From: Flavobacterium sp. 9R
GTDB lineage: Bacteria > Bacteroidota > Bacteroidia > Flavobacteriales > Flavobacteriaceae
Direction: 5' to 3'
DNA: 64,000 nucleotides
Assembly: GCF_902506345.1 (NCBI RefSeq)
Contig: NZ_LR733413.1
Coordinates: 3,235,198 to 3,299,197, forward strand
The notes under the pieces were generated by a model. That model was given only the letters and a program-made list of their open reading frames with translations, did not search any database and was not told the DNA's origin. How positions within the stretch are numbered: the stretch's first letter is position 1; each line of letters begins with the position of its first letter. Shown piece by piece: positions 28,761-57,497 of this stretch. The position numbers were made by a program, and so were the translations under genes.

Positions 28761-28774
28761 AGTCGGGATGACTG
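28761..28774. other. Left attachment site (attL core) of the island
   Basis: AGTCGGGATGACTG is identical to 57484-57497, where it forms the 3' end of tRNA-Pro(GGG). Here it is a stranded fragment with no tRNA body next to it. It marks the left edge of the integrated element. Confidence 0.88.
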
Positions 28775-28881: not shown

Positions 28882-28920
28882 TTTCACTATTTTCATATAT
28901 TTGTGTTCCTAATGTGTTCC
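28882..28920 (+). repeat. Left-end integrase arm-type sites, overlapping the int promoter
   Basis: TTTCACTATTTTCA (28882-28895) and a 22-bp block with two GTGTTCC units (28899-28920) recur exactly at the right end (57342-57355 and 57416-57437). A TATATTTG sequence (28896-28903), a likely -7 promoter element, overlaps the block. Integrase binding could therefore repress its own gene. Confidence 0.75.
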
Positions 28921-30933: not shown

Positions 30934-31689
30934 ATGATTAAGACCATTATAATAGATGACGAATACAACGCTAGGGAGTTTTTAGAAAAACTTTTGACAC
31001 GCTATTTTCCTGATAAATTTTTAATTCTTGACAAATGTGAAAGTGTCGACCAAGCAATTTTATCAATAGAAAAATATAATCCAGAATTAGTTTTTCTGGA
31101 TATACAAATGCCTAATAAAAATGGTTTTCAGCTTTTTAAAGAGTTGGACAAAGTGAAATTTGAAGTTATTTTCACAACGGCACATTCAGAATTTGCTATT
31201 GATGCCATAAAGTGTAGTGCTTTGGATTATTTGCTAAAACCGATAAATTATATCGATTTGTTGGAAACCATCAAGAAATATGATAGTAAGCAAAATAAAG
31301 CATCACAAGAAGAAAAATTAAGATTACTACTAGAGAATGTTGATACTGGTGGCTCAGAGTTTAACAGAATTGCACTACCAACTGAAAATGGATTTGAATT
31401 GCTTAAAACGAATGCAATCTTGTATTGTGAAGCTGATAGTAATTACTGTAAAATTGTTTGCTTAGATGGCAAAAATATTATCTTATCCAAGACTTTAAAA
31501 TATATTGAAGAACTACTTCCAAGTTCCATTTTTCAAAGAATTCATAAATCCTATTTAGTAAATCTAAACTATGTTAACCGTTTCAGTAAGGCTAACGAAT
31601 TAGTGGTAGAATTAGCAAATGGAGAAACACTTCCCGTTTCTGTTAGACAAAAAGAAAATTTCATCAATGCTATCATCCAAAAAAAATAA
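30934..31689 (+). CDS. LytTR-family response regulator (island copy)
   Basis: This 251-aa protein has a receiver domain (IIIDDEYNAREF; phospho-Asp in LVFLDIQMPNKNG; Lys in YLLKPI) and a C-terminal LytTR DNA-binding domain (IFQRIHKSYLVNLNYVNRF). The large propeller kinase begins inside its 3' end (23-bp overlap), so the pair is translationally coupled. It is much more AT-rich in codon use than the chromosomal LytTR gene at 4233-4955, in line with transfer. Confidence 0.92.
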   Translation: MIKTIIIDDEYNAREFLEKLLTRYFPDKFLILDKCESVDQAILSIEKYNPELVFLDIQMPNKNGFQLFKELDKVKFEVIFTTAHSEFAIDAIKCSALDYLLKPINYIDLLETIKKYDSKQNKASQEEKLRLLLENVDTGGSEFNRIALPTENGFELLKTNAILYCEADSNYCKIVCLDGKNIILSKTLKYIEELLPSSIFQRIHKSYLVNLNYVNRFSKANELVVELANGETLPVSVRQKENFINAIIQKK

Positions 31690-39517: not shown

Positions 39518-39875
39518 TATTTGTAACTATTCTAGATTAACCTAAATAGTTCAGGACATAATTTATCTTTTTCATTATCTCTGTAATTAGGTAACATTCA
39601 TTCATTTAAGCTGAATCTTTTGATTGTGATATTGAATATGGCTTTGTTCAAGATAGACTAGATTGAAGGCCGTTAGAGCTTCTCTTCCAAATTGTTTTTT
39701 TTAGTAAAGACACCAATTGTATGACCTGTATCTCCTTCTCTGTTATTAGTAAACTCTTTTTGCTTTTTTTTGTTTAAAAAAAATCTGGAAAAAATTTTGC
39801 GAACGCAATCGAGCACCAATCTATCCAAGATACGCTCCCCTGTAGGGAGGGGAGGTAACGAGAGGGAGGGGGTAC
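39518..39875. other. 358-bp intergenic region, no gene supported
   Basis: No convincing gene is visible. The right part (39830-39875) is G/C-rich for this genome (CTCCCCTGTAGGGAGGGGAG), like short intergenic repeats known from Bacteroidota. A frame through it on the minus strand has the low-complexity composition of such a repeat, not of a protein. Confidence 0.5.
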
Positions 39876-40511
39876 TCAAATGATTGAAAGTTTCAACATC
39901 AAATCTTTTACCTTTTTTACAGTATTTGGCGAGATGTCGTAACCTTTGCTTTTATCGCTTGCCAGTTTTGCCAAATCCCTAAGCGACATAGTAGGATTTG
40001 ATTTTATTACCTTAACCGCTCTATTGTGTTTTGCCAGAATTTCTTCTGGAGAGTCTTTTGTTGCTTTCATTCGCCCTTTATAGGCTCCACGTAAGCGTGC
40101 TTGAATTATTCCTTCAGCTTGTCTTTCAAGAAGGGAGGCTTTTTCGAGCGAACTCAGTTCACTTAGAATGGTAGTTATAAGATTAAATACTGGATTGGCT
40201 TTTCCATTTATCATCGATTCAAGACCCAAATTATCTATCTTAACAATCACTCCTTTATCGAAAAAATATTTTAGTGACTGTAATACGTTTATGGTAGACC
40301 TTCCAGCTCTATCTATGGCATGGAATGAAACATAATTCACTTCTCCAGCTTCAACGGCTTCAGTTAGTTTTTTTCCAGCAGGTCTTTCGGCAAAAGGAAT
40401 TGAACCGCTGATTGTATCAATAAATAATATTTCATCTGGATGGGATTTTGCCAGTTGGCGCAGGTTAGATTGTTGAGCCGTACTTTGGCGAATGTATCTC
40501 GCTTTTTTCAT
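39876..40511 (-). CDS. Small serine recombinase (resolvase/invertase family)
   Basis: The start at 40511 gives 211 aa beginning MKKARYIRQSTAQQSNLRQL. The nucleophile Ser is in RQST, and the conserved arginines are in FHAIDRAGRST. The long E helix (NLITTILSELSSLEKASLLE, RQAEGIIQARLRGAYKGR) and a C-terminal HTH (NPTMSLRDLAKLA) complete a normal small resolvase. Such enzymes invert or resolve short DNA segments or accompany transposons. No transposase is adjacent. It may act within the island or be the trace of an earlier nested insertion. Confidence 0.88.
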   Translation of the reverse strand: MKKARYIRQSTAQQSNLRQLAKSHPDEILFIDTISGSIPFAERPAGKKLTEAVEAGEVNYVSFHAIDRAGRSTINVLQSLKYFFDKGVIVKIDNLGLESMINGKANPVFNLITTILSELSSLEKASLLERQAEGIIQARLRGAYKGRMKATKDSPEEILAKHNRAVKVIKSNPTMSLRDLAKLASDKSKGYDISPNTVKKVKDLMLKLSII

Positions 40512-40659
40512 AACTAGATTATTTAGGTGAAACTTGGAAAAAGTGTGCATTTTTAGGATGGTGTATTTTGCACACTTTTAATTGGTTGATATTGTTGAGT
40601 AATGATTTTTTATAATGTGAACTGTATGGCTATAACCTAATTTTGCACAGGACTGAAGG

Positions 40660-40950
40660 TTACTTACCTTCAATCCAGTCCAGAATATCTACAAGCATAT
40701 CGCAATACACATCATTTACTTCTTTTATCGTTTCTCCTTTTTTACTGATGAATGATATTGTGTAAGTGTCAATCCATTTTAATTGGATTCTAACAGTTCC
40801 TTTGTGTCTGAAACCTGAACATTGGAATTGTAGCCCTCCTTGGTATTCTTTTGATTCTGGTAATGCCATAAAGTTTTTAGAACCATAAGCCATTAAAGCC
40901 CACTTGTCAGTATATATAATTTGTTCAATGATTGTTTTAGCGATTTCCAT
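40660..40950 (-). CDS. Hypothetical protein, element-associated
   Basis: The start at 40950 gives 96 aa beginning MEIAKTIIEQIIYTDKWALM; a longer frame adds an unlikely N-terminus. It has a compact alpha/beta composition (GGLQFQCSGFRHKGTVRIQL) and ends DILDWIEGK. I have an impression of similar small proteins in mobile elements of Bacteroidota, but no function is known to me. It is 148 bp upstream of the serine recombinase on the same strand. Confidence 0.65.
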   Translation of the reverse strand: MEIAKTIIEQIIYTDKWALMAYGSKNFMALPESKEYQGGLQFQCSGFRHKGTVRIQLKWIDTYTISFISKKGETIKEVNDVYCDMLVDILDWIEGK

Positions 40951-41093
40951 AATATTGCAGTTGTAAAGTGATACTTGATTAATATGCCACAAAGTTAAGT
41001 TATATTTGATTATAAAGCAAATGATGTTTAATTTTTAATCAGATAAATTAAGCCTTACTTGATTTATTTCTTATATTTGTAAAAAATATTAGA

Positions 41094-41372
41094 ATGGCTA
41101 TATTAAGACTAAAGGAAATAATGACATTAAAGGGGATATCAAGGGATGAACTATCTTTAAGAGTTGAAGTGTCACCAACCACAATATCAAATATCTCAAG
41201 TGAAAATAATTTACCAACGATTAAACTTTTGTTGAAGATTGCTGAAGCTCTTGATGTGGATGTGAGAGAATTATTTGTTTCAACTAAAGGGACTTCTGTA
41301 ACTCAATTGGAAGTAGATGAAGCTAAGGAATTAATTGCCAAAGGACTTGGTATTTTAAGTGGAAATATTTAA
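41094..41372 (+). CDS. XRE-family HTH transcriptional regulator
   Basis: This 92-aa protein has an N-terminal Cro/C1-type HTH (RLKEIMTLKGISRDELSLRV with SPTTISNISSENNLPTIKLL), followed by EALDVDVRELF and a short helical tail. Unlike the relic at 35434-35648 it is intact. It is divergent from the 96-aa gene and may control it and the recombinase. The binding site cannot be named from sequence alone. Confidence 0.88.
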   Translation: MAILRLKEIMTLKGISRDELSLRVEVSPTTISNISSENNLPTIKLLLKIAEALDVDVRELFVSTKGTSVTQLEVDEAKELIAKGLGILSGNI

Positions 41373-41411
41373 TTATTGAAAATTATCAGATATTTATAAT
41401 TAAAGCACTTT

Positions 41412-41804
41412 ATGAAAAATATTAAAATTGCTAAAAGAGAAATAACAATTGAAAAATTTCAATTTGAATACACCTATAGAGGCCTAATAATTGGGTCACC
41501 AAACCAAGTCATTAATGATAAAATCATATCTGATTACCAAAATTCATTAAAAAAGGGAAATCGTAAATCCATTTTTCATTTCACTAATAATGACTATGTT
41601 TCAAAAGACACATTAAAACCAGTCATTTATTCTGCTTTTTTGGAATCGGAACCAATTAATGACATCGAAAATCAATATGATGGTAGCTGGCTAGTTGTAA
41701 GTTGGTTTGGAGATGAACAAATTGAGAAGTCAATTTCAGAAATTATCACTAAAGGGTTAGCAGGTTTAAAATATGACAAACTCGCTGAAAATTTCACCTT
41801 TTAA
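41412..41804 (+). CDS. Hypothetical protein
   Basis: This 130-aa protein of unknown family has no signal peptide or transmembrane segment. The chain is mixed alpha/beta (FEYTYRGLIIGSPNQVINDK, DGSWLVVSWFGDEQIEKSIS). The composition and the A-rich leader before ATG 41412 support a real gene. It lies 39 bp after the XRE gene and converges with the next gene. The WLVVSWFGDE segment recalls DUF-type immunity proteins, but this is only an impression. Confidence 0.65.
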   Translation: MKNIKIAKREITIEKFQFEYTYRGLIIGSPNQVINDKIISDYQNSLKKGNRKSIFHFTNNDYVSKDTLKPVIYSAFLESEPINDIENQYDGSWLVVSWFGDEQIEKSISEIITKGLAGLKYDKLAENFTF

Positions 41805-41846
41805 AGAAATAAATGTACACAGTTGTGTCCGTGATAACAACGTTTT

Positions 41847-42278
41847 CTATTCAAAAATTTTACCACTGGTTAATACTGAAAGTTTATTAAGGAATGATTT
41901 GAAATTAGGTGGATATTCTTCTAGTCCATTTGATTTTAATCGAAAATCATCTATCCAAATATCGCATTCCCAAGAAGTGCCATCACAAATAAAATTATTT
42001 TGATATTCCTTTTCCCATGATTTGCAGTAACGAGAAATGTACTTGAAAAAGTTTAGTTTTCTTTCCTCTGAAATTACTAAATCGTAATCAATAGAATCGG
42101 ATTGGAAAATCGCAATATGTTCATATTGATAATCATTTATGAATAAAGGGTTTATATTTGAAATAGTTGCAATATCTCCTGTTTTTGCTCGATAGAGGAA
42201 CAGTCCTTTTTTATATTGTAAAGAGTAACTTGACCCAAAGTAAGCACCTATACTAAATTCAAATTTTTTAATTTTCAT
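41847..42278 (-). CDS. Hypothetical protein
   Basis: This 143-aa protein has no recognised family, no signal peptide and no membrane helix. It is rich in aromatic residues (GAYFGSSYSLQYKKGLFLYR, WEKEYQNNFICDGTSWECDI, WIDDFR). It converges with the 130-aa gene (42-bp gap) and is 27 bp downstream of the DUF2130 gene on the same strand, so it might be the last gene of the defence block. Function unknown. Confidence 0.65.
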   Translation of the reverse strand: MKIKKFEFSIGAYFGSSYSLQYKKGLFLYRAKTGDIATISNINPLFINDYQYEHIAIFQSDSIDYDLVISEERKLNFFKYISRYCKSWEKEYQNNFICDGTSWECDIWIDDFRLKSNGLEEYPPNFKSFLNKLSVLTSGKIFE

Positions 42279-42305
42279 AAAACTAACTATTTTTAATGAG
42301 TTAAT

Positions 42306-43568
42306 TTACAGCTCATCAAACTTTGCTTTCATTGTAGGATTGCCGTGCGTTAATTTTTTTATGGTTAAATCTTCTGCCTTGTTATTGGCTAAGCGGAGGT
42401 TATTTTCAGAAGATAAAAGTGCTTCTTTGGTTTTATACAAATGGTCAATTGTTTTGTCTATTTCATCTATAGCTGTTTTGAATTTTCGACTGGCTAAATC
42501 ATAATTTTTGGCAAAACCTTCTTTAAATTTATTGATATTATCCTCAAAATTTGTGATGTCAATATTCTGATTTCGAATCAAATTAAGTTCTGCTTTATAT
42601 TGCATAGAATTCATAGATGCATTTCGAAGAAGCGTAATAATTGGAATAAAAAACTGTGGACGAACGACATACATTTTGTTGTATTTATGAGATACATCAA
42701 CAATACCTGTATTATAATATTCACTTTCGGATTCTAACAATGTTACTAAAACTGCAAATTCACATTTTTTCTCGGTTCGGTCTTTGTCTAGTTCTTTAAA
42801 AAAATCTTCATTCCTTTTTTTTGTTGCTGTTTGGTCTGATTCATTTTTCATCTCAAACATTATGGATATGATTTCATTTCCTTGGTCATCATTTTCTCTG
42901 TAAATGAAATCACCTTTGCTACCTGAACGTGAATCGTTGTCTTTCTCAAAATATGCATTTTGAAAAGCGGTGGCTCTTAGTTTATTAAACTCGGTTTCAC
43001 AATGTTGTTCTAGAGTTTCACCAACCATCTTGGTAGATAGTTTCAGCTTCATATCTTTTCTCAAAGCAATTTCCTCATCTTTCATTTTGATGATTTCATC
43101 TTTGGTTTTGAGTTCAGCATCAAACTTCTCTTTTAATGATTTTTCAAGTAGTTGCTTTTCAGTTTCTTTATTACTCAAGCTGTTTACCAAATCATCACGT
43201 TCCTTTTCTATCTTATGGATAGCTTCAGTAACAGAAAGTTTTTTCTCCAATTCGGCATTGTCTAATTTGGCTTTAATTTGCGAAATCTCACTTTCCTTGG
43301 TAGCTAGCTTTTCCGAAAGTTCTCTTTCGCTTTTCGCTTTTAATTCTAATATTTCTTTATCTTTTTTGGTTAAATCTTCTTGAAGAGAATTTTTAATATT
43401 TGCCTCGGCTAGTTTAATTGCACTATCTTTCTCTTTTTCTGCAAGAGTAAGTCGTTTTTCCAATTCTTCTTCAAATTGGTGGTCACGAACTTGTTTCAAA
43501 ATATCAGCAAAACCAGCTTCATCAACTTTAAATGCTTTATGGCAATTTGGGCAAATAATTTCGTTCAT
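42306..43568 (-). CDS. DUF2130 domain-containing protein (PD-(D/E)xK-like nuclease fold, coiled coil)
   Basis: This 420-aa protein begins with a short zinc-knuckle-like segment (ICPNCHKAF, Cys6/Cys9; no second Cys pair is obvious). A ~150-residue coiled coil follows (about 35-180), then the DUF2130 domain. That domain has [18 protein letters not shown] and [20 protein letters not shown], whose D...ExK pattern fits a PD-(D/E)xK nuclease core. DUF2130 proteins are common in defence islands and mobile elements. It lies 52 bp after the SIR2-like gene on the same strand. Confidence 0.88.
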
Positions 43569-43620
43569 ATTATTTAAATGTTACTTGATTTAATACTATT
43601 CCTTTTGAAGTGAAACAAAT

Positions 43621-44502
43621 TTAGTTATTCTTTAATTTATTTATTACATTTTGATAATATTCAAGTTTTTCTCCTTTTAGATAAATAGTTTCAATGTTAT
43701 TAGCTTGCATAAGCTGCTCTTTAAATTCGTTTTTATATATTTCTGGAGAGTAGTAAAATATTTTATTTTTAATTAAACCTGAATTTTCCATTTGAAATCT
43801 TGCTCTATTTGTTAATAGATACCATAAATCAGTTTCAATGTAATCAAGCGACAATCCAATTATGTGAACATCATGTGTAAATAAATAATCTATCCATGAA
43901 TAATATCTTGTAGAAGGGCTTTTTTTTAGTTGTTTATGTAATGTAGTTTTACTTATTTCATCGTTTTTATAGTTTGTTCCAGAAACAACATAATTTCTTA
44001 TTTGTTGCAGTTGACCACCATAATGTTCATAGCCTAAAGTAATAGAATTTGGATAGTTTATTTCACCATGAATATGCCAAAATTTTTTATTTTCAGTGAC
44101 ATTATGTCTAAATATACTGTACTTTAATTCTTGTATAATTCCGTGGTTTTGTATTGATTCAATAGTTTTACTTCTTAAAATTACTTGCTCAAGTGAATAG
44201 TCATAATTAGTAGTTATATAATTTTCACAATCTAACTTGATTAATTCTTCGTGAATTATATTAGGTTCAATTCCTTTGATTAAAGTTGCAATTCTCTTTT
44301 TAAGCTCACTTTCTTTTAAACCTATTGCATTGAGAGTTTTAAGATAGATTTCTTCATAAAGTAAGGGAAATGGTTTCTTATTAGTTATGATTATTTTTTC
44401 ATTGCTCAAATTTGCAATTTTTGATAAAATATTTTCCCAACTGTGAGAATCTTTTTCATTGATATTGTTTATTCCATTTCCAATTAAAAGTACTTTTTTC
44501 AT
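43621..44502 (-). CDS. SIR2-like domain protein
   Basis: This 293-aa protein shows the SIR2-like Rossmann signatures: VLLIGNGIN at the N-terminus, YITTNYDYSLE, FWHIHGEINYPNSITLGYEH and HIIGLSLDYIETDLWYLL. Such domains in antiphage proteins (ThsA, DSR) hydrolyse NAD+ and kill or stall the infected cell. There is no second domain. It begins 3 bp after the type III Res gene, so it is made with the restriction enzyme and may be a backup effector. NADase activity is inferred from the fold only. Confidence 0.82.
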   Translation of the reverse strand: MKKVLLIGNGINNINEKDSHSWENILSKIANLSNEKIIITNKKPFPLLYEEIYLKTLNAIGLKESELKKRIATLIKGIEPNIIHEELIKLDCENYITTNYDYSLEQVILRSKTIESIQNHGIIQELKYSIFRHNVTENKKFWHIHGEINYPNSITLGYEHYGGQLQQIRNYVVSGTNYKNDEISKTTLHKQLKKSPSTRYYSWIDYLFTHDVHIIGLSLDYIETDLWYLLTNRARFQMENSGLIKNKIFYYSPEIYKNEFKEQLMQANNIETIYLKGEKLEYYQNVINKLKNN

Positions 44503-44505
44503 TTA

Positions 44506-47500
44506 TTATTTATTTAAAGCATAATCTTCAACATCAGCCAATTCAGTAGCTACAATCATTTTACTACCAATAGCACTAAAATGTCGTTTACCACATTTAA
44601 TTTTTCCAGCTTCTTTTGGTCTTAAATCAAATAAACCAGTACTACCTTTAGATTCTACTACAAAATACAATTTTTCATCATCTTGGTCTTTCCACATAAT
44701 AGCCCAGTCGGGGTTGTATGTACCAAGTGGGGTGTCGATTTTGAACCAATCTGGTAGCTTAGCATAAACTGATATGTTTTCACTATTTTCAAATTGTTTT
44801 GCCAAATTCGATTCTACATTAGAATCGTAAACCACATAATTATAAGGTGATTTTGAACTCTCTTTTAAATTGCTTTTCAAATAACCAAATAACTCTTTGT
44901 TTTCAAAAAGTTCTTGACTGTAATATTCTGCATCACCAATTTTCTTATAACTGATTCCATCGATAATGTGTAAATTCATTTGCTCATTGATAATATCAAT
45001 ACAACCCTCAATGAATTTTTGAGGATTGATTTTGAAGTAATCTAGTTTGTTGATTCCAGTTAAAATTTTTACAATAGATTTTCTGGTCAGCTGGGTCTCA
45101 TTTTGAAGATAGCTTACAATATCTGGCAATCTTTCTACTTCATCTTTGATACTTGTTGTTTCACTATTAGGACTTATTGTAGCATCAACTCCTCCAGCAT
45201 TAATTGAGATAGAAGCTTTTGTATAAATAAGTTTTCCTCTAGTGATTTTTAATCGGTCATTGATTGCATTGATACATTCTTTAACCAGTGAATCCGAATC
45301 AAAGTTGACTGAGAAAGTTGTTTTGAATTTTACTTTTTCCCATAGTTCTCTAAACTCTGGACTGTCTAAAATTCTTTTATTTACAGTGACTAATTTTTTG
45401 TCTGCTTGGTTTTTTATTTCGAGCCTTCCAGCTGTTTCTTTTAATGTGTTGATGATTTGATTTAGTACGTGTTCCTGTTCTTTAAACTCTTCAGGAATAA
45501 CAACCGTTTCATCCTTTAAATCAATTTTCAGCTTGTCTTGTACTTTTCCTTTTGCATCAATATAACCTTGGCTTATAAGATGTTTGAAGAGTTCTTCTGA
45601 TTTTTCTTGACCTAGATAAACTGTGTCCTCGTCATTGATTTCAACTACAATATTTCCAAAACTATGTTTCTCAAGAATACCAAATTTGATTCCTGTTTCT
45701 TTTTCAATCTCTTTCTGGAAATTTTCCACAAATTCAGCATAGGTTTCTGTAGCCATGACCGTTAAAGTATTCACTTCATGTCCATAAATACGTTCTCCTG
45801 CTTGATTTACGCATAAACGTAATCCACGTCCTATTTCTTGTCTTCTTCTAATTTCGGAACCACCAGCATCTTTTAGAGTGCAAATCTGAAATACATTTGG
45901 ATTATCCCATCCTTCTTTTAAAGCGGAGTGAGAAAATATGAAGCGTAATTTTGAATCGAAACTTAAAAGCATTTCTTTGTCACGCATGATTAGATTATAG
46001 GTGTCCTCATCTGCATTGGTGTTTCCTTTGGTATCCTTGAAGTATTCGTATTTATCCTTAGAATTGCTTTTTTTAGCTTTTTTATCAATGGAGAAATAAC
46101 CGTTGTGAACTTGATTTACTTCAACTTCTGCACCATTTAATTCTCCAAATAAACTAACATATTTTGGTTTAGCTATTAGCTTTAAATATTCTTTTTCGAA
46201 GATTTCAGCGTACTCACCATTAGCTATATTACCATCTTCATCATATTGGCGGTATTTACTAACCGTGTCGATAAAGAACAATGAAAGAACTTTAATTCCT
46301 TGAGGATTCAATACTAATTCTTTATTTAAATGCTCTTCAATAGTTTTGCGAATTAAAGCAGTTTTAATTTGGGTATCATCTATATTTCCAATCGCTTCTC
46401 CAAGCTTAATTATTTCATCTTTACTGGTAAAATCGATGTATTCATTTCCAGCCACTGCATAAATATCTTTTATGATGTAACCTTCATATTCAGCTCTATC
46501 AGTAATTTGTTCTAAATCTTCATTTTGCTTTACAAGAATCGTTTTTCTTGATATACTTCCGTTTTTGAAAATATCCAGTTCCAATTTTGCTACAGGAAAA
46601 CCTTTTGAGACTTTTACCTCGACCAATCTAATATAAGCATTGTTGTTGATTCCTTCTGTTTGAACAGAACCCACTTCAATTTGTTTCACCAACTTCTTTT
46701 CATAAGCATCAACCGCATCCAGCTTGTACATCATATTTATTTTCTCATCCTTTCGGTGAGTTGCCGAGTATTTGACTATTGCCAGAGGATTTAAGCTCTG
46801 TATGGCTTTCTTTCGGATTGGTGTACTTATCGTTGTTTGAGGTTCATCAATAAAAACTACTGGATTTGTTTTCTGAATTAAATCTAATGGTTTGTATCCT
46901 AATGAATCATTATATCTGTGGATAATATTAGCTGTTTTCTTTTCATCATCTGGATTATCAAAACTTTTTGCAAATGCATCAATGTTTATTACCATTATTT
47001 CCAATCGGTCATTAGTGGCAAAATCTCTAACTTCATTTAACTTGCTAGAATCATAAACAAAGAAATTGTAGTTGATGTTATCATACAATTCTCTTAAATG
47101 TTCCTTAGTAATTTGTAGTGATTTATAAACTCCTTCTTTTATAGGGATAGAGGGCACTACAATAATGTGTTTTGAAAAACCATACTTTTTATACAGTTCA
47201 ACAATGGTTCTTAAGTAAACATAAGTTTTCCCTGTACCCGTTTCCATTTCAACAGTAAAATCAAGATGTTTTCTTTCTATTTCGCCTCTTGTTGAAGGTT
47301 TTAATCCATTTGATAATTGAATTTTTTGCGTGTTTTCAAGTAATTGTCCGTCAGTCAATAACAACCTATTACCATAACCACTTTCTGTAAATTCTAGATT
47401 TTGTTGTTTTGCTAGAAATTCTGGCGAATAAACTGTAAAATTAGAGTCACATTTCTCTTGACCACTAAAAATATTTACAATGGCTTCAATGGCTTCTTGC

Positions 47501-47535
47501 TGGTAATTTAACGTACTATCAAATTGTATTTTCAT
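44506..47535 (-). CDS. Type III restriction-modification endonuclease/helicase subunit (Res)
   Basis: This 1009-aa protein has an SF2 helicase core. Walker A METGTGKTYVYLRT lies at about 97-110, the Walker B-type box is VVFIDEPQTT, motif III is SATHRKDE and motif VI is RRRQEIGRGLRL. The C-terminal nuclease motif is D...ExK, in NPDWAIMWKDQDDEKLYF and VVESKGSTG. With a matching Mod subunit it would cut unmodified DNA between inversely oriented sites. Length is typical. The Mod gene is not adjacent; the AlbA_2 gene lies between them. Confidence 0.94.
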   Translation of the reverse strand: MKIQFDSTLNYQQEAIEAIVNIFSGQEKCDSNFTVYSPEFLAKQQNLEFTESGYGNRLLLTDGQLLENTQKIQLSNGLKPSTRGEIERKHLDFTVEMETGTGKTYVYLRTIVELYKKYGFSKHIIVVPSIPIKEGVYKSLQITKEHLRELYDNINYNFFVYDSSKLNEVRDFATNDRLEIMVINIDAFAKSFDNPDDEKKTANIIHRYNDSLGYKPLDLIQKTNPVVFIDEPQTTISTPIRKKAIQSLNPLAIVKYSATHRKDEKINMMYKLDAVDAYEKKLVKQIEVGSVQTEGINNNAYIRLVEVKVSKGFPVAKLELDIFKNGSISRKTILVKQNEDLEQITDRAEYEGYIIKDIYAVAGNEYIDFTSKDEIIKLGEAIGNIDDTQIKTALIRKTIEEHLNKELVLNPQGIKVLSLFFIDTVSKYRQYDEDGNIANGEYAEIFEKEYLKLIAKPKYVSLFGELNGAEVEVNQVHNGYFSIDKKAKKSNSKDKYEYFKDTKGNTNADEDTYNLIMRDKEMLLSFDSKLRFIFSHSALKEGWDNPNVFQICTLKDAGGSEIRRRQEIGRGLRLCVNQAGERIYGHEVNTLTVMATETYAEFVENFQKEIEKETGIKFGILEKHSFGNIVVEINDEDTVYLGQEKSEELFKHLISQGYIDAKGKVQDKLKIDLKDETVVIPEEFKEQEHVLNQIINTLKETAGRLEIKNQADKKLVTVNKRILDSPEFRELWEKVKFKTTFSVNFDSDSLVKECINAINDRLKITRGKLIYTKASISINAGGVDATISPNSETTSIKDEVERLPDIVSYLQNETQLTRKSIVKILTGINKLDYFKINPQKFIEGCIDIINEQMNLHIIDGISYKKIGDAEYYSQELFENKELFGYLKSNLKESSKSPYNYVVYDSNVESNLAKQFENSENISVYAKLPDWFKIDTPLGTYNPDWAIMWKDQDDEKLYFVVESKGSTGLFDLRPKEAGKIKCGKRHFSAIGSKMIVATELADVEDYALNK

Positions 47536-47699
47536 GACTAACTTTATTTCAAAAACAAGAAACCTTAATATTTTATTTTCTTGCTTAATTTTATTGAAAT
47601 CTAACTTAAATAAGCTAAACTATTATTTATGAGTACTTTGTTTCTGGATTGTTTACTTGCTTAAATTGATTACCAATATAGTCTAAGCTCATAATTCTA
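47536..47699. repeat. Diverged direct repeat 5' of res, bounded by CTTGCTTA
   Basis: CTTGCTTA occurs at 47580-47587 and 47656-47663 (76 bp apart). The segment between aligns by eye with the gap at 49161-49269, where the same octamer occurs at 49161, 49238 and 49259. The pair brackets the AlbA_2 gene. This gap may hold the promoter of res-SIR2-DUF2130. Confidence 0.55.
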
Positions 47700-49160
47700 T
47701 TACTGTTTTTTAAACATATAAAGAGCATTTATGTCTCTTTGTTTAGTACTTAATTTGTCTAGTAATCCGTCATCAATAAACTTATTTAGATACCCCCTAA
47801 CAGTATTCTCATTTATTGCTACATAATTGACTATTTCGCTTAATGTTGCTTTATGATGAGTAAATAGATATACAAATATTTTTTTCTGAGTCTCATTACA
47901 TTCAGGCCAGTTTTTCTCGATTTTTTCCATTACTTCATCATGAATAGTTTTTGAATGACCACTGATTTTATTTCTCAAAATCAAATACACTGTACCGTTT
48001 TCTTCTTTGTATTCAGGAGTAGATAACATTGATTTTTCCATCGATTCGTAAATCCTTGAGACTCCTTCATTGAGTTGTCTTACATATCCCATATCTTCTA
48101 GTACTCTTGCTACACGAGGGTTTCTAGCAAATCTTTCATTTTTGATATTTTCTATAGTTACTTGCGCTGGTAGAGGACCGCTATTACTGATTTCTAAACG
48201 ATTATCAAAGTGCTTAATATATATCGAATTTCCTTGTACGTTGTAAGAACGATGACAAAGTGCATTTACAATTCCTTCTAACCAAGCTTCTTCGGGATAT
48301 TCAGGAACCTTTTTAAATTTTCCAGTTTCAATATCTAAAAAGTAGTAATCTTTGAAAGAAGCTCTTAAAAAAGCTTTTAGTATATCTATTAATTGTGGAA
48401 TGTTGGTTTCAAATCTTTCGTCTTTTACAACGTTGTGGTTCGTTCCTGTCAATGCTTCAGTTCCTTCGTATCTTATATAACGTACTGAAGCAGAAGAAAT
48501 ATATTTCTCAGGGTCTTGTGCAAAAAGGAGTACTGAAGCATTTTTTAATTCATAAACTCCATCTTTCTTTTTGGCTAAATGTCGTTTTACTAATAAATCG
48601 AGTACTTCGCCTTTATAATTTAGCTTTTCTTTATATTCATTAAGTAAATCTTGGTCTAAATCTTCAAAATCAAAATCTTTGACTATTTCTTCTTCAAAAC
48701 GTCTTATTCCTTTATCGTATTCTAGTTTTTTTATTCTGTCTCGGTCTAATTGTCTATTGGTATCTAATACTCTCAAATAAACATTATCATTGTCTTTTCT
48801 TGAAAAAATGCGCTCAAGGTCTTGTTCAACATGATATAAGAATATCAAATTGCCCTCTATCTCCATTTCCTCTAGTTCTACATTACAAGCAGGATGAATA
48901 AAATCAAATACTAAAGTTCTGTATGCGTTTAGTTTGTCTCCAAAAGCTCTAACATCTTGTACTTCTCCATTATCAGCAACACCAAATGCTAAAACTCCGC
49001 CATCAGCATTAAGCATTCCTATTAATTCCTCTGCAATTTTAGTTGGTTTTATATCTTTTTCTCCCAATCCTTTTCTCTCAAAATATTGGTTCTCTTTTTG
49101 TGTACGCAAATACACGTCTGTAATTAAAGGGTTAATAGTTGAAATTATCATAGTACTCAT
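47700..49160 (-). CDS. AlbA_2/Schlafen-like DNA-binding protein with GHKL-type ATPase domain
   Basis: This 486-aa protein has an N-terminal AlbA_2 (Schlafen-like) domain at about 15-135 (ENQYFERKGLGEKDIKPTKI, LNADGGVLAFGVADNGE). A HATPase_c_4-type domain follows (EAWLEGIVNALCHRSYNVQG, RLEISNSGPLPAQVT, NEGVSRIYESM), and a winged-helix C-terminus (LSEIVNYVAINENTVRGYLN) ends the chain. Such proteins are often called putative transcriptional regulators and recur inside restriction loci. The start is at 49160 or 49151. It sits between mod and res, flanked by similar ~90-bp sequences, as if inserted as a cassette. Confidence 0.88.
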   Translation of the reverse strand: MSTMIISTINPLITDVYLRTQKENQYFERKGLGEKDIKPTKIAEELIGMLNADGGVLAFGVADNGEVQDVRAFGDKLNAYRTLVFDFIHPACNVELEEMEIEGNLIFLYHVEQDLERIFSRKDNDNVYLRVLDTNRQLDRDRIKKLEYDKGIRRFEEEIVKDFDFEDLDQDLLNEYKEKLNYKGEVLDLLVKRHLAKKKDGVYELKNASVLLFAQDPEKYISSASVRYIRYEGTEALTGTNHNVVKDERFETNIPQLIDILKAFLRASFKDYYFLDIETGKFKKVPEYPEEAWLEGIVNALCHRSYNVQGNSIYIKHFDNRLEISNSGPLPAQVTIENIKNERFARNPRVARVLEDMGYVRQLNEGVSRIYESMEKSMLSTPEYKEENGTVYLILRNKISGHSKTIHDEVMEKIEKNWPECNETQKKIFVYLFTHHKATLSEIVNYVAINENTVRGYLNKFIDDGLLDKLSTKQRDINALYMFKKQ

Positions 49161-49269
49161 CTTGCTTATTTATTATAATACCTTACTTAAACAATACTAT
49201 CTATTGTTGTTGTTGGTTTTATGTGTAGTGTTCTCTGCTTGCTTAATCTGTGTAGAAACTTGCTTAGTT
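49161..49269. repeat. Diverged direct repeat 5' of the AlbA_2 gene, bounded by CTTGCTTA
   Basis: The octamer CTTGCTTA is found at 49161-49168, 49238-49245 and 49259-49266. The stretch 49161-49250 resembles 47580-47668 (shared ACTTAAA, CTATT and TTTGT/TTTTAT blocks at similar spacing, 77 against 76 bp between octamers). Confidence 0.55.
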
Positions 49270-51135
49270 TTAAATACTCTTAATTTCATTAATACCAAAA
49301 CGCTTCAAAGTTTGCACTGAGTTTGTTTTCTCCACATCGCCAAATCCTGAATCTTTGAAGATAACTCTACATACTTCTGGGTTTAAAGCCTCTTTCCAAG
49401 CACCAATCCCTTCAGCAACTTTATTAGTAATTCCATCTGCAAGGCAAACGAATAATGCTCCAAAACCAACACTAAATACTTTTTTACCTTCAATGATTTT
49501 TTCCTCAATTGGTAAGGTTAAGTCTAAACCGTATTTTAATAATATTTCAAACAATACATCTTCTTCTGTACGACCTTCTTTAATATTATCTTGAGAATCA
49601 AACAAATTATCTACTAAATTATCTGGATTGCCATCCCAACCTTTTATGTTAGAACTGTCTAATTTGAAAACTTTAAAACCTAAGTCTAATTCTTTTGCTT
49701 TTTCTGGATTGTCATTTGCTAATTTTTTTGAAGCCTGACGAATTCGCTCTTTTGCTATATCTGCAATATTTTTAAAACCCTTGCTAAATGCATTACTTTT
49801 AATATCAGTCGGTTCAGGTAATTGAACCATGATAAATTTACGAGTTCCTGAATCTTCAAGATTTCTCAAAATCACAGCATGAGCGGTTGTTGAAGAACCA
49901 CTAAAAAAATCTAATATCAAATCGTTATCATTACAACTAATTTGAATTAATCTTTCGATTAAAGCTGTTGGTTTTGGATAATCGAACTCAACATCACCTA
50001 TTAAATCTTTAATGATTTTCGAGGCAGATTGTGAACTTTGAAGATTTTCAAAAAGTGAGGATTGAATTGAATCAACAGATTCATTTTGAAAAATTTTTTT
50101 TCTAGGAACACCTTTTCCATTATCAGCAAAATATATTCTATTGTCTTCAAGTAGTATTTTGAATTCTTCTTCACTTACTGACCAGTCTCTATAAAATTCA
50201 ATACCTTCTGGATTTATGATTGTGAAAGATTTACTTCCTCCACTTCCTTCTCCACTTCCTCTAGATATATTGGCAGACATCCAATTGCCTCTTGGGTCAT
50301 TGTCTGAATTCGTCCAGCCTTTTAAGTCTCTGTATTTAAAAGAATTATATTTAGTAAATCTTTTGTTATTAATGTTTTTAAAAGCAACTAAAATATATTC
50401 ATGTTCTTTTCTAACTGTATTTTTAGCAGTTTTAGGCATAGAACCATCCTCTCTTACGTCCCATATATATTGTTCTACACATGATTCTCCGAAAATTTCA
50501 TCACAAATCTTTTTTAAATTCACTACTTCATTATCATCAATACTCATAAAAATAACACCATCTTCTTTTAATAAGTTTCTCGCTAGTTTTAAACGAGGAT
50601 ACATCAGGTTTAGCCAATTGGAATGAAAACGCCCATCACTTTCTGAATTAGTGGTCAATCTATTACCCTCATCGTCAATCTGTCCAGAAATTTGTTGATA
50701 ATTTTTTAGATTATCTTTATAATTATCTTTGTAAACAAAATCTTTTCCTGTGTTATAAGGTGGGTCAATGTAAATCATCTTTACCTTGTTGGCATAGCTT
50801 TTTTGCAACAACTTAAGAACCTCAAGATTATCACCCTCAATGTATAAGTTTTCGGTAGTATCCCAGTTTACACTTTCGTCTTTTGCAGGTCTTAGCGTTC
50901 CTGTGCTTGGTTTGTGTGCTTCTCTACGAGCCTGCGCTTTACCAGCCCATGTAAAACGGTAATATTCCTCTTCCTCTTCAATTTCTTTCCCTAAAATATC
51001 CTGTAAAACTTTAAAATCAATTTTACCTTCAGTCAGCACTTCAGGAAAAAGTTCTTTCAATCGTGCAATATTATCATTTACTATATCTAAACTTTGAGTA
51101 AGTTCGTCTCCTTTTGTAATTTTATCTAAGCTCAT
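49270..51135 (-). CDS. Type III site-specific DNA-methyltransferase (Mod)
   Basis: This 621-aa methyltransferase is of the beta class, with the catalytic motif IYIDPPYNTG (DPPY at 124-127) before the SAM-binding motif DLILDFFSGSSTTAHAV. The N-terminal extension (SLDIVNDNIARLKELFPEVL) is typical of Mod proteins of type III systems. The central part (about 220-400) should be the target-recognition domain. The DPPY order implies N6-adenine methylation. Its ATG overlaps the TGA of the DUF4391 gene by 4 bp. No simple-sequence repeat for phase variation is visible in it. Confidence 0.94.
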   Translation of the reverse strand: MSLDKITKGDELTQSLDIVNDNIARLKELFPEVLTEGKIDFKVLQDILGKEIEEEEEYYRFTWAGKAQARREAHKPSTGTLRPAKDESVNWDTTENLYIEGDNLEVLKLLQKSYANKVKMIYIDPPYNTGKDFVYKDNYKDNLKNYQQISGQIDDEGNRLTTNSESDGRFHSNWLNLMYPRLKLARNLLKEDGVIFMSIDDNEVVNLKKICDEIFGESCVEQYIWDVREDGSMPKTAKNTVRKEHEYILVAFKNINNKRFTKYNSFKYRDLKGWTNSDNDPRGNWMSANISRGSGEGSGGSKSFTIINPEGIEFYRDWSVSEEEFKILLEDNRIYFADNGKGVPRKKIFQNESVDSIQSSLFENLQSSQSASKIIKDLIGDVEFDYPKPTALIERLIQISCNDNDLILDFFSGSSTTAHAVILRNLEDSGTRKFIMVQLPEPTDIKSNAFSKGFKNIADIAKERIRQASKKLANDNPEKAKELDLGFKVFKLDSSNIKGWDGNPDNLVDNLFDSQDNIKEGRTEEDVLFEILLKYGLDLTLPIEEKIIEGKKVFSVGFGALFVCLADGITNKVAEGIGAWKEALNPEVCRVIFKDSGFGDVEKTNSVQTLKRFGINEIKSI

Positions 51136-51899
51136 AGTGTGTTTAATAATGTTTTAAGATGCTCAATTTCGTTTTTTTTCTTCTGTATTTCAATGTTCAA
51201 AGAAACTTTAGTGTTGAGTTGAGATTCTTTCTTTATTTGGTTTGACAAAGTAAGGATTTCTTTTTCTATTTTTTGTATCGTTTCCAAATGTTTTAGGTCT
51301 TCTTCGGTTCTTATAGTACTCCGTTTATTGAAGTTTCCCGTTACCATTGCTGTTTGAAATTGTACTATAGCACTGGTGTAACTTTTATAGGTTGTTTCTA
51401 AGTTGGTTTTGTCTAAAACGGCAAAATCCAAGCCTTCAAAGAAAGCACCTACTAATTCGCTTTTATATAATTTTGACACATTGGGTGAGTTGATAAAAGC
51501 TTCAATGGTTCGTTTTGATTTATCGTTTTGATTGATTTTTTTGTCACAAACGTTTACCACAAACTCATCAGCATTTTCAATCACCAAAACAATGGGGTAC
51601 GGAATGTGTTTCTGGAATAAATTAGTCACTTTATCAATTGTACCTTTTATAAGATTGCCTGATAGTGTACAAGTCATTACTTGAATTTCTTCAAAAATAT
51701 GAGTTTCATTTTGGAATAAAGCAATGTTAGTGTTGGATGGTTTGATACTCGCTAACCAATCCATTGCGACAATTTCATTCAATATTTTTTTGTCAGCAGT
51801 GCTCAATTCAAAGTTTCTACTAAAGAAAGCCTTGCTTATTTTCTTACTGATAATCGCCCTTTCAGGTATGTTTAATATTTTGTTGTAGTTAAAACTCAT
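51132..51899 (-). CDS. DUF4391 domain-containing protein
   Basis: This 255-aa protein matches DUF4391 (ILNIPERAIISKKISKAFFS, MDWLASIKPSNTNIALF) and has a C-terminal coiled coil (KEILTLSNQIKKESQLNTKV). I know of no established biochemical role; the family is found between SNF2-like helicases and type III Mod genes. Spacing is tight: it starts 3 bp after the helicase stop and overlaps mod by 4 bp (ATGA). A structural or targeting link between the two enzymes is likely. Confidence 0.87.
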   Translation of the reverse strand: MSFNYNKILNIPERAIISKKISKAFFSRNFELSTADKKILNEIVAMDWLASIKPSNTNIALFQNETHIFEEIQVMTCTLSGNLIKGTIDKVTNLFQKHIPYPIVLVIENADEFVVNVCDKKINQNDKSKRTIEAFINSPNVSKLYKSELVGAFFEGLDFAVLDKTNLETTYKSYTSAIVQFQTAMVTGNFNKRSTIRTEEDLKHLETIQKIEKEILTLSNQIKKESQLNTKVSLNIEIQKKKNEIEHLKTLLNTL

Positions 51900-51902
51900 C
51901 CT

Positions 51903-54900
51903 TTATTTAATAATCAAATAACTGATTAATTCTAAATTTTCTTCTTGATTGATAATTGAACTCAATAGGCTAGTTCCACCAGCAGTAGCCAATGAATCTA
52001 GTCCAACTTCTTCTTGCACACCAATTACTTCTTGAATGGCAGTTTTTAGCAAATTAGCATACTCCTCCATCTTTTTATTTGCTTTGGTTTCTTTGTCAAA
52101 TTCAGCAATTAATTCTGGAACAATTCTATCATTACCCATAGCTATTTTTCTAAAATAGTCTAAAGCCGTTTTGGTTTGAGAAGCTTTGATGATTTCGGCA
52201 CCATCTATACTAATATAAACTAAAAAGAAGGGATATAAGATGTTGTTTTTAAGTTTAGATGCATAGTCTTCACTGTTGCCTTTTAAACAAAAAATAACGC
52301 CTTGTTTTACATGCTCAAGATTTGATTTAGCTATTGCGAAAGAAGCTTTGGGTATATGTTTCAATTCTTCCAATTCAGAGTCGGTACTTTTCTCCAAATC
52401 AATTTTAAAATCATTGAATGTCAAATCGGTAATTGATATATTTCCGTGAACGTCTTCAAGGTCAATAACCTGATTTTGTAATTGTTTCAGTTGTTGTCTG
52501 CGATAATCCAAGTCTTGCATTTCACGACTGTTTTGAGAAATAATATTATCTTCTCCCGTAGCCGAAACGTCTAGCATCACCATTCTACCTTGAACACGTG
52601 CTACCAAATCAATAAAACTATCCAACTCCATACTAGGAAAAAAGTTCACCAATTGGATATTATCATTTTTAGACCCAATGCGGTCAATGCGTCCAAAACG
52701 TTGAATAATACGTACGGGATTCCAGTGTATATCGTAATTGACTAAATAATCACAATCCTGAAGGTTTTGACCTTCCGAAATACAATCGGTACAAAATAAA
52801 ATGTCGATTTCATTTTTCTCATCAGGATAAATTTCAGCTCTCTTTTTTGAAAGGGGAGAAAAATTAGTTAAAATAGTATTCAAATCAGTTTTGCACTTTG
52901 GCATGTTGGTTTTATTATTACCCGAACCAGTAACTAAAGCTGAAGTTAAACGATGCTCTTTTTTTAGCCAATCCTGCAATTCGTTATACAAGTAGATAGC
53001 AGTATCAGCAAATGCTGTAAATACAATTACCTTCTTATTGCCATCATTTATAGGCTTGTGTAGTTTTTCTTCGATGATATTTTTTAGCTCTAATAATTTG
53101 GCATCACGTTCCACATCAATCAACTTGATGCTTCCCATTAATCTCACCAGTACCGCTTTATCTTGCTTTAGGTCTTGTTTCCAAGCAATGTTATCTAAAT
53201 CTTGAATTAATACTTTGGTTTTTCCTCCAACCAATAAGTCTTCTAATTCAGTATCGTCAATGTCTATATCGTTGATGTCTATATCCAAATCTAAAGTTCC
53301 AGACTGATGATTTTCAATTTGTTTTAAGTTTTCATCGATAAAACTAATTAATTTTTCAACCGTCAATTTGAAAGAATGGATGGAGCTTTCTAAACGTTTT
53401 AATAAGTTAACCCGCATCAAATAAATTAAACTTTGTTCACGGTCGACTTGTTTAAAAACGCTTCCTGTTCCCGTTTCCATATCGTACTTAGCTTCGTATT
53501 CAGCTCTTTTGTCTGCTCTTACATAAGCTAGAGGCGTATAAGATGCTAAAGTAAGGGTGCTAATCTCATCATAGATTTGACCTATATCGCTAAATTGATT
53601 TTTAGTATCTATTTCGGGTGTTCTTGTTATTGGTGTTAATCTATTTGGAAAGTTACCAATATCAGACATATCATAGTATTTCTCAATATGTTTACGAGAC
53701 CTCGCAATGGTTAACATATCTAATATTCTAAAATAAGAACCGTCCAAACTTTCCATTAATCCATTTACATCAAGATTATTTGGGTCACCGTTTTTATACC
53801 ATAAAGTAAACTTCCTTTGTGCATCTTTCATTACTTGACTGATACTATCTATACCATATTGACTAAAATATCTGTCTTCTCCTTCTGTTATAAAAGCAAC
53901 TTGATTTTTCAAATCATTCATTTTGTTGTTTACAGGAGTTGCCGATAACATTAACACTTTTGTTCTGATATTGGCTTTTATAACGTGATTCATCAATCGT
54001 TTATAACGAGTCATTCCGTCTCTCTTGTTGGGATTATTTCTGAAATTATGAGACTCATCTATAACAACTAAATCATAATTCCCCCAATGTATGGTTTCTA
54101 AATCAATATCGCCTGATTTACCTCTTTCTCTGGTTAAATCGGTATGATTCAAAACATCAAAATTTAATCGGTCTTCAGCAAGTATATTCCTTTTATCGTT
54201 TAAAGTATAAACTGTCCAGTTTTCTCTTAGTTTTTTTGGAGCTAATAGCAATACCCTTTGGTCATTCCTCAAAAGATAATATTTTATTACTGCTAAAGCT
54301 TCAAATGTTTTTCCTAAACCAACTGAATCTGCAATAATACAGCCACCATAAGTTTCTATTTTATCAATGGCACCAATTACTGCATCTTTTTGGAAATTGT
54401 AGAGCAAACTCCAAATTTTAGAGTTTTTAAATCCTGTTTTTTCTAACTTCTCATCGGCTCTTTCATTAACTGTTGAATAATGAAATATTTCACGAATACT
54501 GTATTTGTAAATTGCTTCAGCTGAAATAGTATTGGTTCCTTTCTCTAATAATGCTTTGACTGCATCATTCAAAACTATCTTGCTACTGTTCCAAGCTCCA
54601 TTAAAATAATTCAGATATTGATTTTGGGTATCTTCAATATTATTTATAAAAATTAAATTCTCATCATTTATTGTTCCCAAACATACTGAATCAAGGTCTA
54701 ATGGTGTTAAGAAGAAACAATTAGAAATTCCATCATTTTCTATAATTAGTATATTTTGGTTTCCAATTCCACCTTTTCTGATTTGAATTTTATCATCAAT
54801 AAGACCAATTACTTGGTTGATTCGGTGTTTTCGGTCTAATAAAAGATTTAATTTACTTTCTTTTTCATTTTGAATAAATCGAAAATCATCATCTTGTCCA

Positions 54901-55073
54901 AAATTATAGCTCAATAGCAAATGGATTTGTTTAGATATTGAAAATATGCTAACTAATTCAAATAAAGCAAATGCTGTAAAATGGTTGCAACTTATGTAAA
55001 TATTTGAACTGGGAGTGATTAAAGTCTGAAGTTCTTCAAGTAGTAATCTACTTTTGTTGTCTATAATATTCAT
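51903..55073 (-). CDS. SNF2-like DEAD/DEAH helicase with N-terminal PLD-like region
   Basis: The ATG at 55073 gives 1056 aa; a TTG two codons earlier (55079) is also open. The N-terminal ~180 residues resemble the phospholipase-D-like domain of helicase-associated proteins (NIYISCNHFTAFALFELVS), but a full HxK motif is not evident. The SF2 motor follows: I ADSVGLGKTFEALAV, II VVIDESHNFRNN, III LSATPVNNK, V/VI CTDCISEGQNLQDCD and RIIQRFGRIDRIGS. It is the first gene of the defence block, reads away from the HTH gene and has an inverted repeat (55119-55186) in its promoter region. Confidence 0.9.
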   Translation of the reverse strand: MNIIDNKSRLLLEELQTLITPSSNIYISCNHFTAFALFELVSIFSISKQIHLLLSYNFGQDDDFRFIQNEKESKLNLLLDRKHRINQVIGLIDDKIQIRKGGIGNQNILIIENDGISNCFFLTPLDLDSVCLGTINDENLIFINNIEDTQNQYLNYFNGAWNSSKIVLNDAVKALLEKGTNTISAEAIYKYSIREIFHYSTVNERADEKLEKTGFKNSKIWSLLYNFQKDAVIGAIDKIETYGGCIIADSVGLGKTFEALAVIKYYLLRNDQRVLLLAPKKLRENWTVYTLNDKRNILAEDRLNFDVLNHTDLTRERGKSGDIDLETIHWGNYDLVVIDESHNFRNNPNKRDGMTRYKRLMNHVIKANIRTKVLMLSATPVNNKMNDLKNQVAFITEGEDRYFSQYGIDSISQVMKDAQRKFTLWYKNGDPNNLDVNGLMESLDGSYFRILDMLTIARSRKHIEKYYDMSDIGNFPNRLTPITRTPEIDTKNQFSDIGQIYDEISTLTLASYTPLAYVRADKRAEYEAKYDMETGTGSVFKQVDREQSLIYLMRVNLLKRLESSIHSFKLTVEKLISFIDENLKQIENHQSGTLDLDIDINDIDIDDTELEDLLVGGKTKVLIQDLDNIAWKQDLKQDKAVLVRLMGSIKLIDVERDAKLLELKNIIEEKLHKPINDGNKKVIVFTAFADTAIYLYNELQDWLKKEHRLTSALVTGSGNNKTNMPKCKTDLNTILTNFSPLSKKRAEIYPDEKNEIDILFCTDCISEGQNLQDCDYLVNYDIHWNPVRIIQRFGRIDRIGSKNDNIQLVNFFPSMELDSFIDLVARVQGRMVMLDVSATGEDNIISQNSREMQDLDYRRQQLKQLQNQVIDLEDVHGNISITDLTFNDFKIDLEKSTDSELEELKHIPKASFAIAKSNLEHVKQGVIFCLKGNSEDYASKLKNNILYPFFLVYISIDGAEIIKASQTKTALDYFRKIAMGNDRIVPELIAEFDKETKANKKMEEYANLLKTAIQEVIGVQEEVGLDSLATAGGTSLLSSIINQEENLELISYLIIK

Positions 55074-57341: not shown

Positions 57342-57437
57342 TTTCACTATTTTCACTGTTTTCTTTAATTGTAAAAATAGGAACAAGAAGGTCTTAAAAA
57401 TTAGAAAAAAGCTCCATTTGTGTTCCTAATGTGTTCC
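57342..57437 (+). repeat. Right-end integrase arm-type sites
   Basis: TTTCACTATTTTCA (57342-57355) and the 22-bp block with two GTGTTCC units (57416-57437) are exact copies of the left-end sequences at 28882-28895 and 28899-28920, in the same orientation. Confidence 0.75.
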
Positions 57438-57483: not shown

Positions 57484-57497
57484 AGTCGGGATGACTG
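57484..57497. other. Right attachment site (attR core)
   Basis: AGTCGGGATGACTG covers the tRNA-Pro 3' acceptor strand, the discriminator base and two bases beyond. It is identical to 28761-28774. Integration here leaves the tRNA gene intact. Confidence 0.88.

Follow-up and report, generated by a model that had tools for sequence, protein, structure and literature searches.

A type III restriction-modification locus of Flavobacterium sp. 9R with a conserved helicase-DUF4391 pair and exchangeable cargo genes

In the present study, we analyzed a defense locus on the minus strand (42306-55073) of a 64,000-nucleotide stretch of the genome of Flavobacterium sp. 9R (contig NZ_LR733413.1, positions 3,235,198 to 3,299,197), referred to hereafter as the window. 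Four of its seven co-directional genes, encoding an SNF2/RapA-like helicase, a DUF4391 protein, and the type III DNA methyltransferase Mod and helicase-nuclease Res, constitute a core that is not together by chance because its order is kept across phyla. The remaining three, AlbA_2, SIR2-like, and DUF2130, are exchangeable cargo; the SIR2 and DUF2130 families recur but do not define the system. An earlier note on this DNA had proposed a single seven-gene system joining restriction to a second helicase module and an NAD-depleting backup, and the helicase module withstood the analysis. We read the locus as EcoP15I-type restriction-modification equipped with a dedicated accessory motor module and exchangeable second-line effectors, and regard this reading, in which the helicase would act as a motor, as having about an even chance of being correct.

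All seven genes are real and lie at the positions first noted. Open reading frame (ORF) coordinates bore out the tight junctions that had been described, namely, 3 bp between the helicase and DUF4391, a 4-bp overlap of DUF4391 and Mod, and 3 bp between Res and the SIR2-like gene; wider gaps, absent from the earlier note, separate Mod from AlbA_2 (109 bp), AlbA_2 from Res (164 bp), and the SIR2-like gene from DUF2130 (52 bp). The helicase gene (51903-55073; Pfam SNF2-rel_dom and Helicase_C) encodes 1056 amino acids (aa) from an ATG, and its ORF extends to 55079 if a TTG two codons upstream is taken as the start. The motifs SVGLGKT, DESH, SATP, and QRFGRIDRIG were recognized by eye and are conserved across a 92-row alignment. 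The helicase was matched by the PADLOC model C3a139 "HKD+Snf2" at 396 bits, and an HxKx4D motif was found in the first 330 helicase residues of none of the 92 rows. DUF4391 (51132-51899; PF14335, E 3.9e-46) is followed by Mod (49270-51135; PF01555), and Res (44506-47535; RE_endonuc and ResIII) lies beyond the AlbA_2 gene.

By sequence, both Mod and Res belong to type III systems, and their motifs are intact, as had been claimed. Translation and inspection by eye revealed DPPYNTG and DFFSGSSTT in Mod and GTGKT, IDEP, GRGLR, and YNPDWA...VVESKG in Res, and the latter stretches align with those of EcoP15I Res. Mod is a beta-class amino-methyltransferase homologous to EcoP15I Mod (4zcf_A, E 1.9e-66, matching in two stretches) and matched the solved Mod 6k0w over residues 26-493. 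Res combines a superfamily 2 ATPase with a C-terminal PD-(D/E)XK nuclease and matched EcoP15I Res (4zcf_C, E 2.8e-55) over residues 57-616 and 884-1003. The PADLOC model scan that the earlier note had suggested was run and returned MTase_III (PDLC03634, 716 bits) for Mod and REase_III (PDLC03647, 1060 bits) for Res. The locus resembles EcoP15I (Mod2Res1) in its homologous and neighboring Mod and Res genes with intact motifs, whereas the SNF2 helicase, DUF4391, and the insertion slots are additions. Type III systems are characterized by an asymmetric site, methylation of a single strand, and cleavage that depends on ATP and requires two sites.

The best 80 of 580 confirmed matches to the helicase were fetched as loci of named species, and the counts describe these nearer relatives. 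Seventeen loci with less than 6 kb after the helicase were left uncounted, and the order helicase-DUF4391-Mod-Res was present in all 63 with at least 6 kb. A scripted test for DUF4391 was passed by 61 of these; L110 and L131 failed its overlap filter only, and DUF4391 was confirmed between the helicase and Mod in both. The hosts include members of Bacteroidota, Bacillota, Pseudomonadota, Myxococcota, Nitrospirota, and the methanogenic archaea, with Flavobacterium frigidarium as the closest named relative among the matches listed. Across 62 measured loci, the helicase-DUF4391 gap was 50 bp or less in 55, the DUF4391-Mod gap 50 bp or less in 32, and the Mod-Res gap 200 bp or less in 34; insertions are mostly found in the DUF4391-Mod and Mod-Res slots. 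Two Mod matches each were present in L067 and L121. A second gene order, Mod-Res-helicase-DUF4391, occurs in L037, L038, and L194 and speaks for a functional unit.

A profile search for DUF4391 covered 395 phylum and 199 family genomes, in partly overlapping sets, and yielded 25 distinct near-full matches, each spanning 200 or more of the 232 profile positions; the helicase adjoins 23 of them. The other two (L004 and L005) both contain an in-frame stop in DUF4391, and the L005 contig stops approximately 1 kb upstream of the gene. The L004 copy (L041/L004, G386:C114) lies beside Mod with no helicase match within 20 kb and looks decaying. In a plasmid collection, 445 records matched the helicase, 94 of them over at least 80% of its length, and all four fully annotated plasmids examined (Lactococcus, E. 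faecium, L. plantarum, and Methanomethylovorans) carry the four genes by annotation, as helicase-related, DUF4391, site-specific methyltransferase, and DEAD/DEAH helicase genes. The Methanomethylovorans copy has one extra gene, and in the Lactococcus copy (L196), DUF4391 and Res are separated by three genes annotated as methyltransferases, two more than in the basic unit. The unit is also present, annotated under other names, in the record of the Erysipelothrix phage phi1605 (L201); there, it lies near two annotated macrolide-resistance genes, and its DUF4391 gene carries the annotation of a chemotaxis protein.

Co-divergence was assessed by Mantel tests on 45 rows, comprising the window and the 44 of the 80 loci in which all four proteins fell inside set length limits. 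Correlations were high for helicase-DUF4391 (r 0.90), DUF4391-Res (0.88), Mod core-Res (0.88), helicase-Res (0.86), and helicase-Mod core (0.73), whereas the Mod recognition region reached just 0.14-0.23 with each other part. Every permutation p was 0.001; therefore, shared ancestry alone contributes. DUF4391 diverges the most (mean p-distance 0.72). These comparisons show the helicase and DUF4391 to be tightly coupled; in the examined loci, the pair sits with Mod-Res and has diverged with it. Defense genes cluster in general, and the slots around the pair hold unrelated defense genes, both of which would suit a free-standing helicase-DUF4391 module that shares a defense island with a type III system by chance. 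This is, however, quite unlikely in view of the constant order of Mod and Res in the 63 loci, the short helicase-DUF4391 gaps, and the correlated divergence.

The link runs one way: the motor pair is found with Mod-Res wherever enough DNA is visible, and Mod-Res can do without the motor. A Res model matched at E 0.001 or lower in 125 of the 395 phylum genomes, with many matches partial or weak, and DUF4391 in 27. Among 20 Res places fetched without a nearby DUF4391 match, four have a DrmD-like helicase, seven are helicase-less, meaning absent from the 8-20 kb fetched, and the others are fragmentary or have short context. In L179-L181, the DrmD-like helicase that replaces the motor lies immediately 5' of Mod, and in L176 it is located upstream of Mod, with DrmD model scores of 729 bits for L179 and 703 bits for L176 (L180 and L181 are 96% like L179). 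L230, judged by annotation, likewise has Mod and Res preceded by a DrmD-like SNF2 helicase and lacks DUF4391, and this arrangement reaches an E. coli conjugative plasmid. A 28-residue helicase match is retained in L171.

On a quick Res tree of 83 rows with several long branches (69 with the helicase, 10 labeled without, and four DrmD-like), the helicase label required three changes versus 13.1 in shuffles, with none of 500 shuffles as low. The tree leaves out rows shorter than 840 aa as well as L052, L169-L171, L173, L177, L183, and L191; L166, L174, and L184, for which little upstream DNA was fetched, are labeled helicase-less with less certainty. L165-L168 nest among helicase-bearing rows, which reads as loss of the helicase; the DrmD-like rows and some helicase-less rows form a separate clade.

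The three cargo genes comprise an AlbA_2/HATPase_c_4 gene in the Mod-Res slot (47700-49160, assigned by Pfam) and, after Res, the SIR2-like (SIR2_2) gene (43621-44502), whose PF13289 match is weak (E 1.8e-6; 28.5 bits versus a cut-off of 24.5), and the DUF2130 gene (42306-43568; PF09903, E 7.3e-88, 295 bits), the product of which has a PD-(D/E)XK-like GD...EMK motif by eye. Their exchange is seen in the sibling locus L191 of a same-genus genome (helicase identity 95%). At the DNA level, L191 and the window are 87-90% identical across the flank 39773-42278, Res, the Mod end, and the stretch from the Mod start through DUF4391 to the helicase, and they differ in three stretches. Positions 42279-44504, with the SIR2-like and DUF2130 genes, are replaced by one gene (L191:3921-5888) encoding a protein of 655 aa in which PIN-like motifs and a C-terminal membrane segment were recognized by eye and for which Pfam and PADLOC gave no significant match. 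Positions 47536-49269, with AlbA_2, are absent from L191, in which the Mod and Res matches are 1 bp apart; AlbA_2 is common to the window and L055. The third stretch, 49690-50484 on the minus strand, is the exchangeable central part of Mod, presumed to be the target recognition region. By blastn, it had no DNA match in L191 or L055 and one 270-bp piece at 67% in L056, and its breakpoints are identical on both sides in all three siblings.

A composite of all seven genes, as the earlier note had put forward, would accord with their common strand and small gaps and with the recurrence of six of the seven families in one operon (L207). It is nevertheless very unlikely: it is contradicted by L191, where the four core genes are kept at the identity given above outside the recognition region with none of the three cargo genes; at the query loci of 49 species genomes, SIR2_2 was found at one and DUF2130 at one; and no locus looked at repeats all seven.

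The slots of 43 named loci contained 103 ORFs, of which 81 were scanned with Pfam after minus-strand and short ORFs had been dropped. They fell into 59 families, led by AlbA_2 (9 proteins), GmrSD_N (7), DUF1016 (6), and RhuM (3), with one protein each for DarT, Abi_2, and DUF2130. AlbA_2 is the commonest slot family, yet it is present in only eight of the 80 named loci. In the 49 genomes, two of 13 DUF2130 matches (L108 and L207) and two of 27 SIR2_2 matches (L058 and L207) lie in such loci, and in L058 a SIR2-HerA pair starts 30 bp after Res. L207 (G772:C52:64000-82000), the second locus in the Hydrogenophaga metagenome-assembled genome behind L133, has the order helicase-DUF4391-SIR2-HerA-DUF2130-Mod-Res; a relaxase gene lies upstream, and the SIR2-HerA pair is nested inside the type III locus. 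Scans of 10 of the remaining 11 DUF2130 places showed no core helicase or Res; a Mod-like gene was present in L213 alone. Eleven of the other 25 SIR2_2 places were scanned, and 14 were compared with the query locus by coordinates alone; among the 11, only L225 had distant helicase, Mod, and Res matches. L225 (G730:C3:133000-151532) carries a more distant Res-Mod pair with an SNF2-type helicase match and the SIR2_2 match between them.

For the SIR2-like protein of the window, one of the 248 other genomes of the family that were searched had a match at E 1e-10 or lower, with 27% identity. This protein probably acts as an abortive effector that consumes NAD. The NAD-depleting backup and DUF2130 of the earlier note hold as variable cargo recurring in L058, L108, and L207, but not as fixed parts, since they are swapped out in L191. 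The two genes might instead form their own abortive module, independent of the restriction unit: both are present in the window, both are gone from the same place in L191, and a SIR2 and a DUF2130 gene are also close in L207. However, the L207 SIR2 is of another type and paired with HerA, and that of L207 is the only one of the 13 DUF2130 matches to have a listed SIR2_2 match less than 10 kb away on the same contig, which makes such a module unlikely.

An AlphaFold2 model of DUF4391 (predicted local distance difference test score 92.9; core 93.1) has an alpha/beta core and a C-terminal helical hairpin, and only P12, K23, P100, R121, and G188 are at least 90% conserved. These residues do not look like an active site. 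In the motor-module reading, Mod would methylate an asymmetric site and thereby mark self DNA, and unmethylated invading DNA would activate Mod-Res as in EcoP15I. The helicase-DUF4391 pair may load on the same invading DNA, with DUF4391 as a non-enzymatic adaptor connecting the motor to Mod or Mod-Res; traveling on DNA, the motor could clear roadblocks or stop phage DNA left uncut by Res alone. Genes in the DUF4391-Mod, Mod-Res, and post-Res slots, here AlbA_2, SIR2-like, and DUF2130, would serve as exchangeable second-line effectors or regulators.

We favor this reading because cargo is exchanged at L191 and defense-type cargo is found elsewhere; because the gene order in the 63 loci, the adjacency of DUF4391 and the helicase, co-divergence, and the clustering of labels on the Res tree agree with it; and because a DrmD-like motor takes the place of the pair in some loci and the unit is kept together on four plasmids and in one phage record. 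Several observations weigh against it. When distant pairs alone are considered, the Mantel r falls to 0.13-0.67, with the lowest value for helicase-Mod core. Neither kind of helicase is present in the fetched DNA of L165, L167, L168, L172, L175, L178, and L182, each with at least 7 kb upstream of Mod, so that the restriction-modification reaction itself seems able to proceed without the motor. The DUF4391 model gave no clear match in the PDB, and the adaptor role is therefore one that we infer. In the three-gene system Eco86II, the accessible part of the report states that the extra ATPase is dispensable for methylation and was undetected in the cleaving fraction (PMC8259958).

An alternative is a regulatory role, in which the RapA-like helicase and DUF4391 would control transcription or restrain Res until Mod protects the host, for example, on entry of the element. 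Among PDB sequences, RapA matches the helicase best, copies ride mobile elements on which delayed restriction would help, the two genes come first in the gene order, and the Eco86II ATPase is, according to that part of the report, apparently dispensable for cutting as well (PMC8259958). On the other hand, the match to RapA is limited to helicase residues 746-807, and Mod-Res persists without the helicase in several lineages, so that restraint is not essential; we consider regulation somewhat unlikely. A more speculative extension of the motor-module reading, to which we give similarly modest credence, is a four-subunit branch of type III systems in which DUF4391 would couple a translocating SNF2 motor to methylation-reading Mod-Res, and a failed or stalled cut would trigger the slot effector, candidates being a SIR2 or SIR2-HerA NADase, DUF2130, AlbA_2, DarT, GmrSD, and YhcG.

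Regarding known systems, the earlier description as undescribed has to be narrowed. In 2021, two N4-methylcytosine type III systems, Eco86II and BspHIV, were described as having an additional helicase-like ATPase gene 5' of mod, and such a gene was reported in the vicinity of Mod and Res in over 500 genomes (PMC8259958, as far as its accessible text goes). The window shares a helicase-like ATPase gene 5' of mod, with DUF4391 lying between, whereas the accessible text describes approximately 140 bp of non-coding DNA between the ATPase and mod in BspHIV and does not mention DUF4391. The Eco86II and BspHIV ATPases may belong either to the window helicase family or to the DrmD-like one. DUF4391 as partner of the extra type III ATPase and the cargo structure were not found in the open-access literature searched; DUF4391 itself appears in one paper of that literature, in a table row (PMC7784981). 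Type III Res, Mod, and an SNF2 helicase are listed together on a Cronobacter integrative element in the part seen of PMC12757443.

The window locus differs from other defense systems with related parts. DISARM class 1 consists of DrmD and DrmMI. The likeness lies in an SNF2 helicase beside an amino-methyltransferase, and DrmD models match the window helicase core, but the DrmD score of 155 bits is far below the NCBIfam cut-off of 610. The absence of DUF1998 and PglZ that had been noted was upheld: among the eight window proteins scanned, none matched DrmB (DUF1998; for PADLOC, the helicase and Mod were judged among the best 25 matches listed), and the DrmA model matched the shared helicase core only, which places the locus outside DrmA- and DrmB-containing DISARM. 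BREX and BREX-related systems also combine a methyltransferase with an SNF2-type helicase, and the components of the latter differ from the window unit in the accessible text (PMC12839542); the eight proteins included no PglZ, DUF499/BrxC ATPase, or DUF1156 methyltransferase. Thoeris, which pairs ThsA with the TIR-domain protein ThsB, does not fit either: the match to ThsA reached only 19.8 bits, and none of the same eight proteins has a TIR domain match. The SIR2-HerA system, which we take to be Nezha, shares a SIR2-like gene with the window and is itself cargo in L058 and L207, but the window SIR2 has no HerA and neighbors Res and DUF2130.

The locus is carried by a putative 28.7-kb integrative element (28761-57497) inserted at the 3' end of a tRNA-Pro gene. 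A 14-bp direct repeat at the tRNA end bounds the element on both sides (28761-28774 and 57484-57497), and 18-bp inner repeats occur at 28903-28920 and 57420-57437 (0.02 expected). Within the element lie genes for a tyrosine integrase (28931-30190) and for a protein of the serine resolvase type (39876-40550), and G+C is lower over most of its length. It also encodes a histidine-kinase protein with two-component-regulator propeller repeats (31619-34678) and a protein with a leucine-rich-repeat match (37691-39517).

Surveys for Mod and Res alone would call this locus plain type III restriction-modification and miss the helicase-DUF4391 module, which is spread over Bacteria, Archaea, plasmids, and one phage record. 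As far as the open-access literature was searched, the DUF4391 partner and the cargo slots of a type III accessory motor module are new. The 2021 study did not settle what the extra type III ATPase does, according to the accessible part of PMC8259958. Ready-made genetic tests are offered by the partner protein DUF4391, by natural cases in which the motor is lost or swapped, and by the sibling locus L191 with its exchanged cargo. If the four-subunit reading is true, this family would provide a modular chassis leading from DNA sensing to abortive infection.

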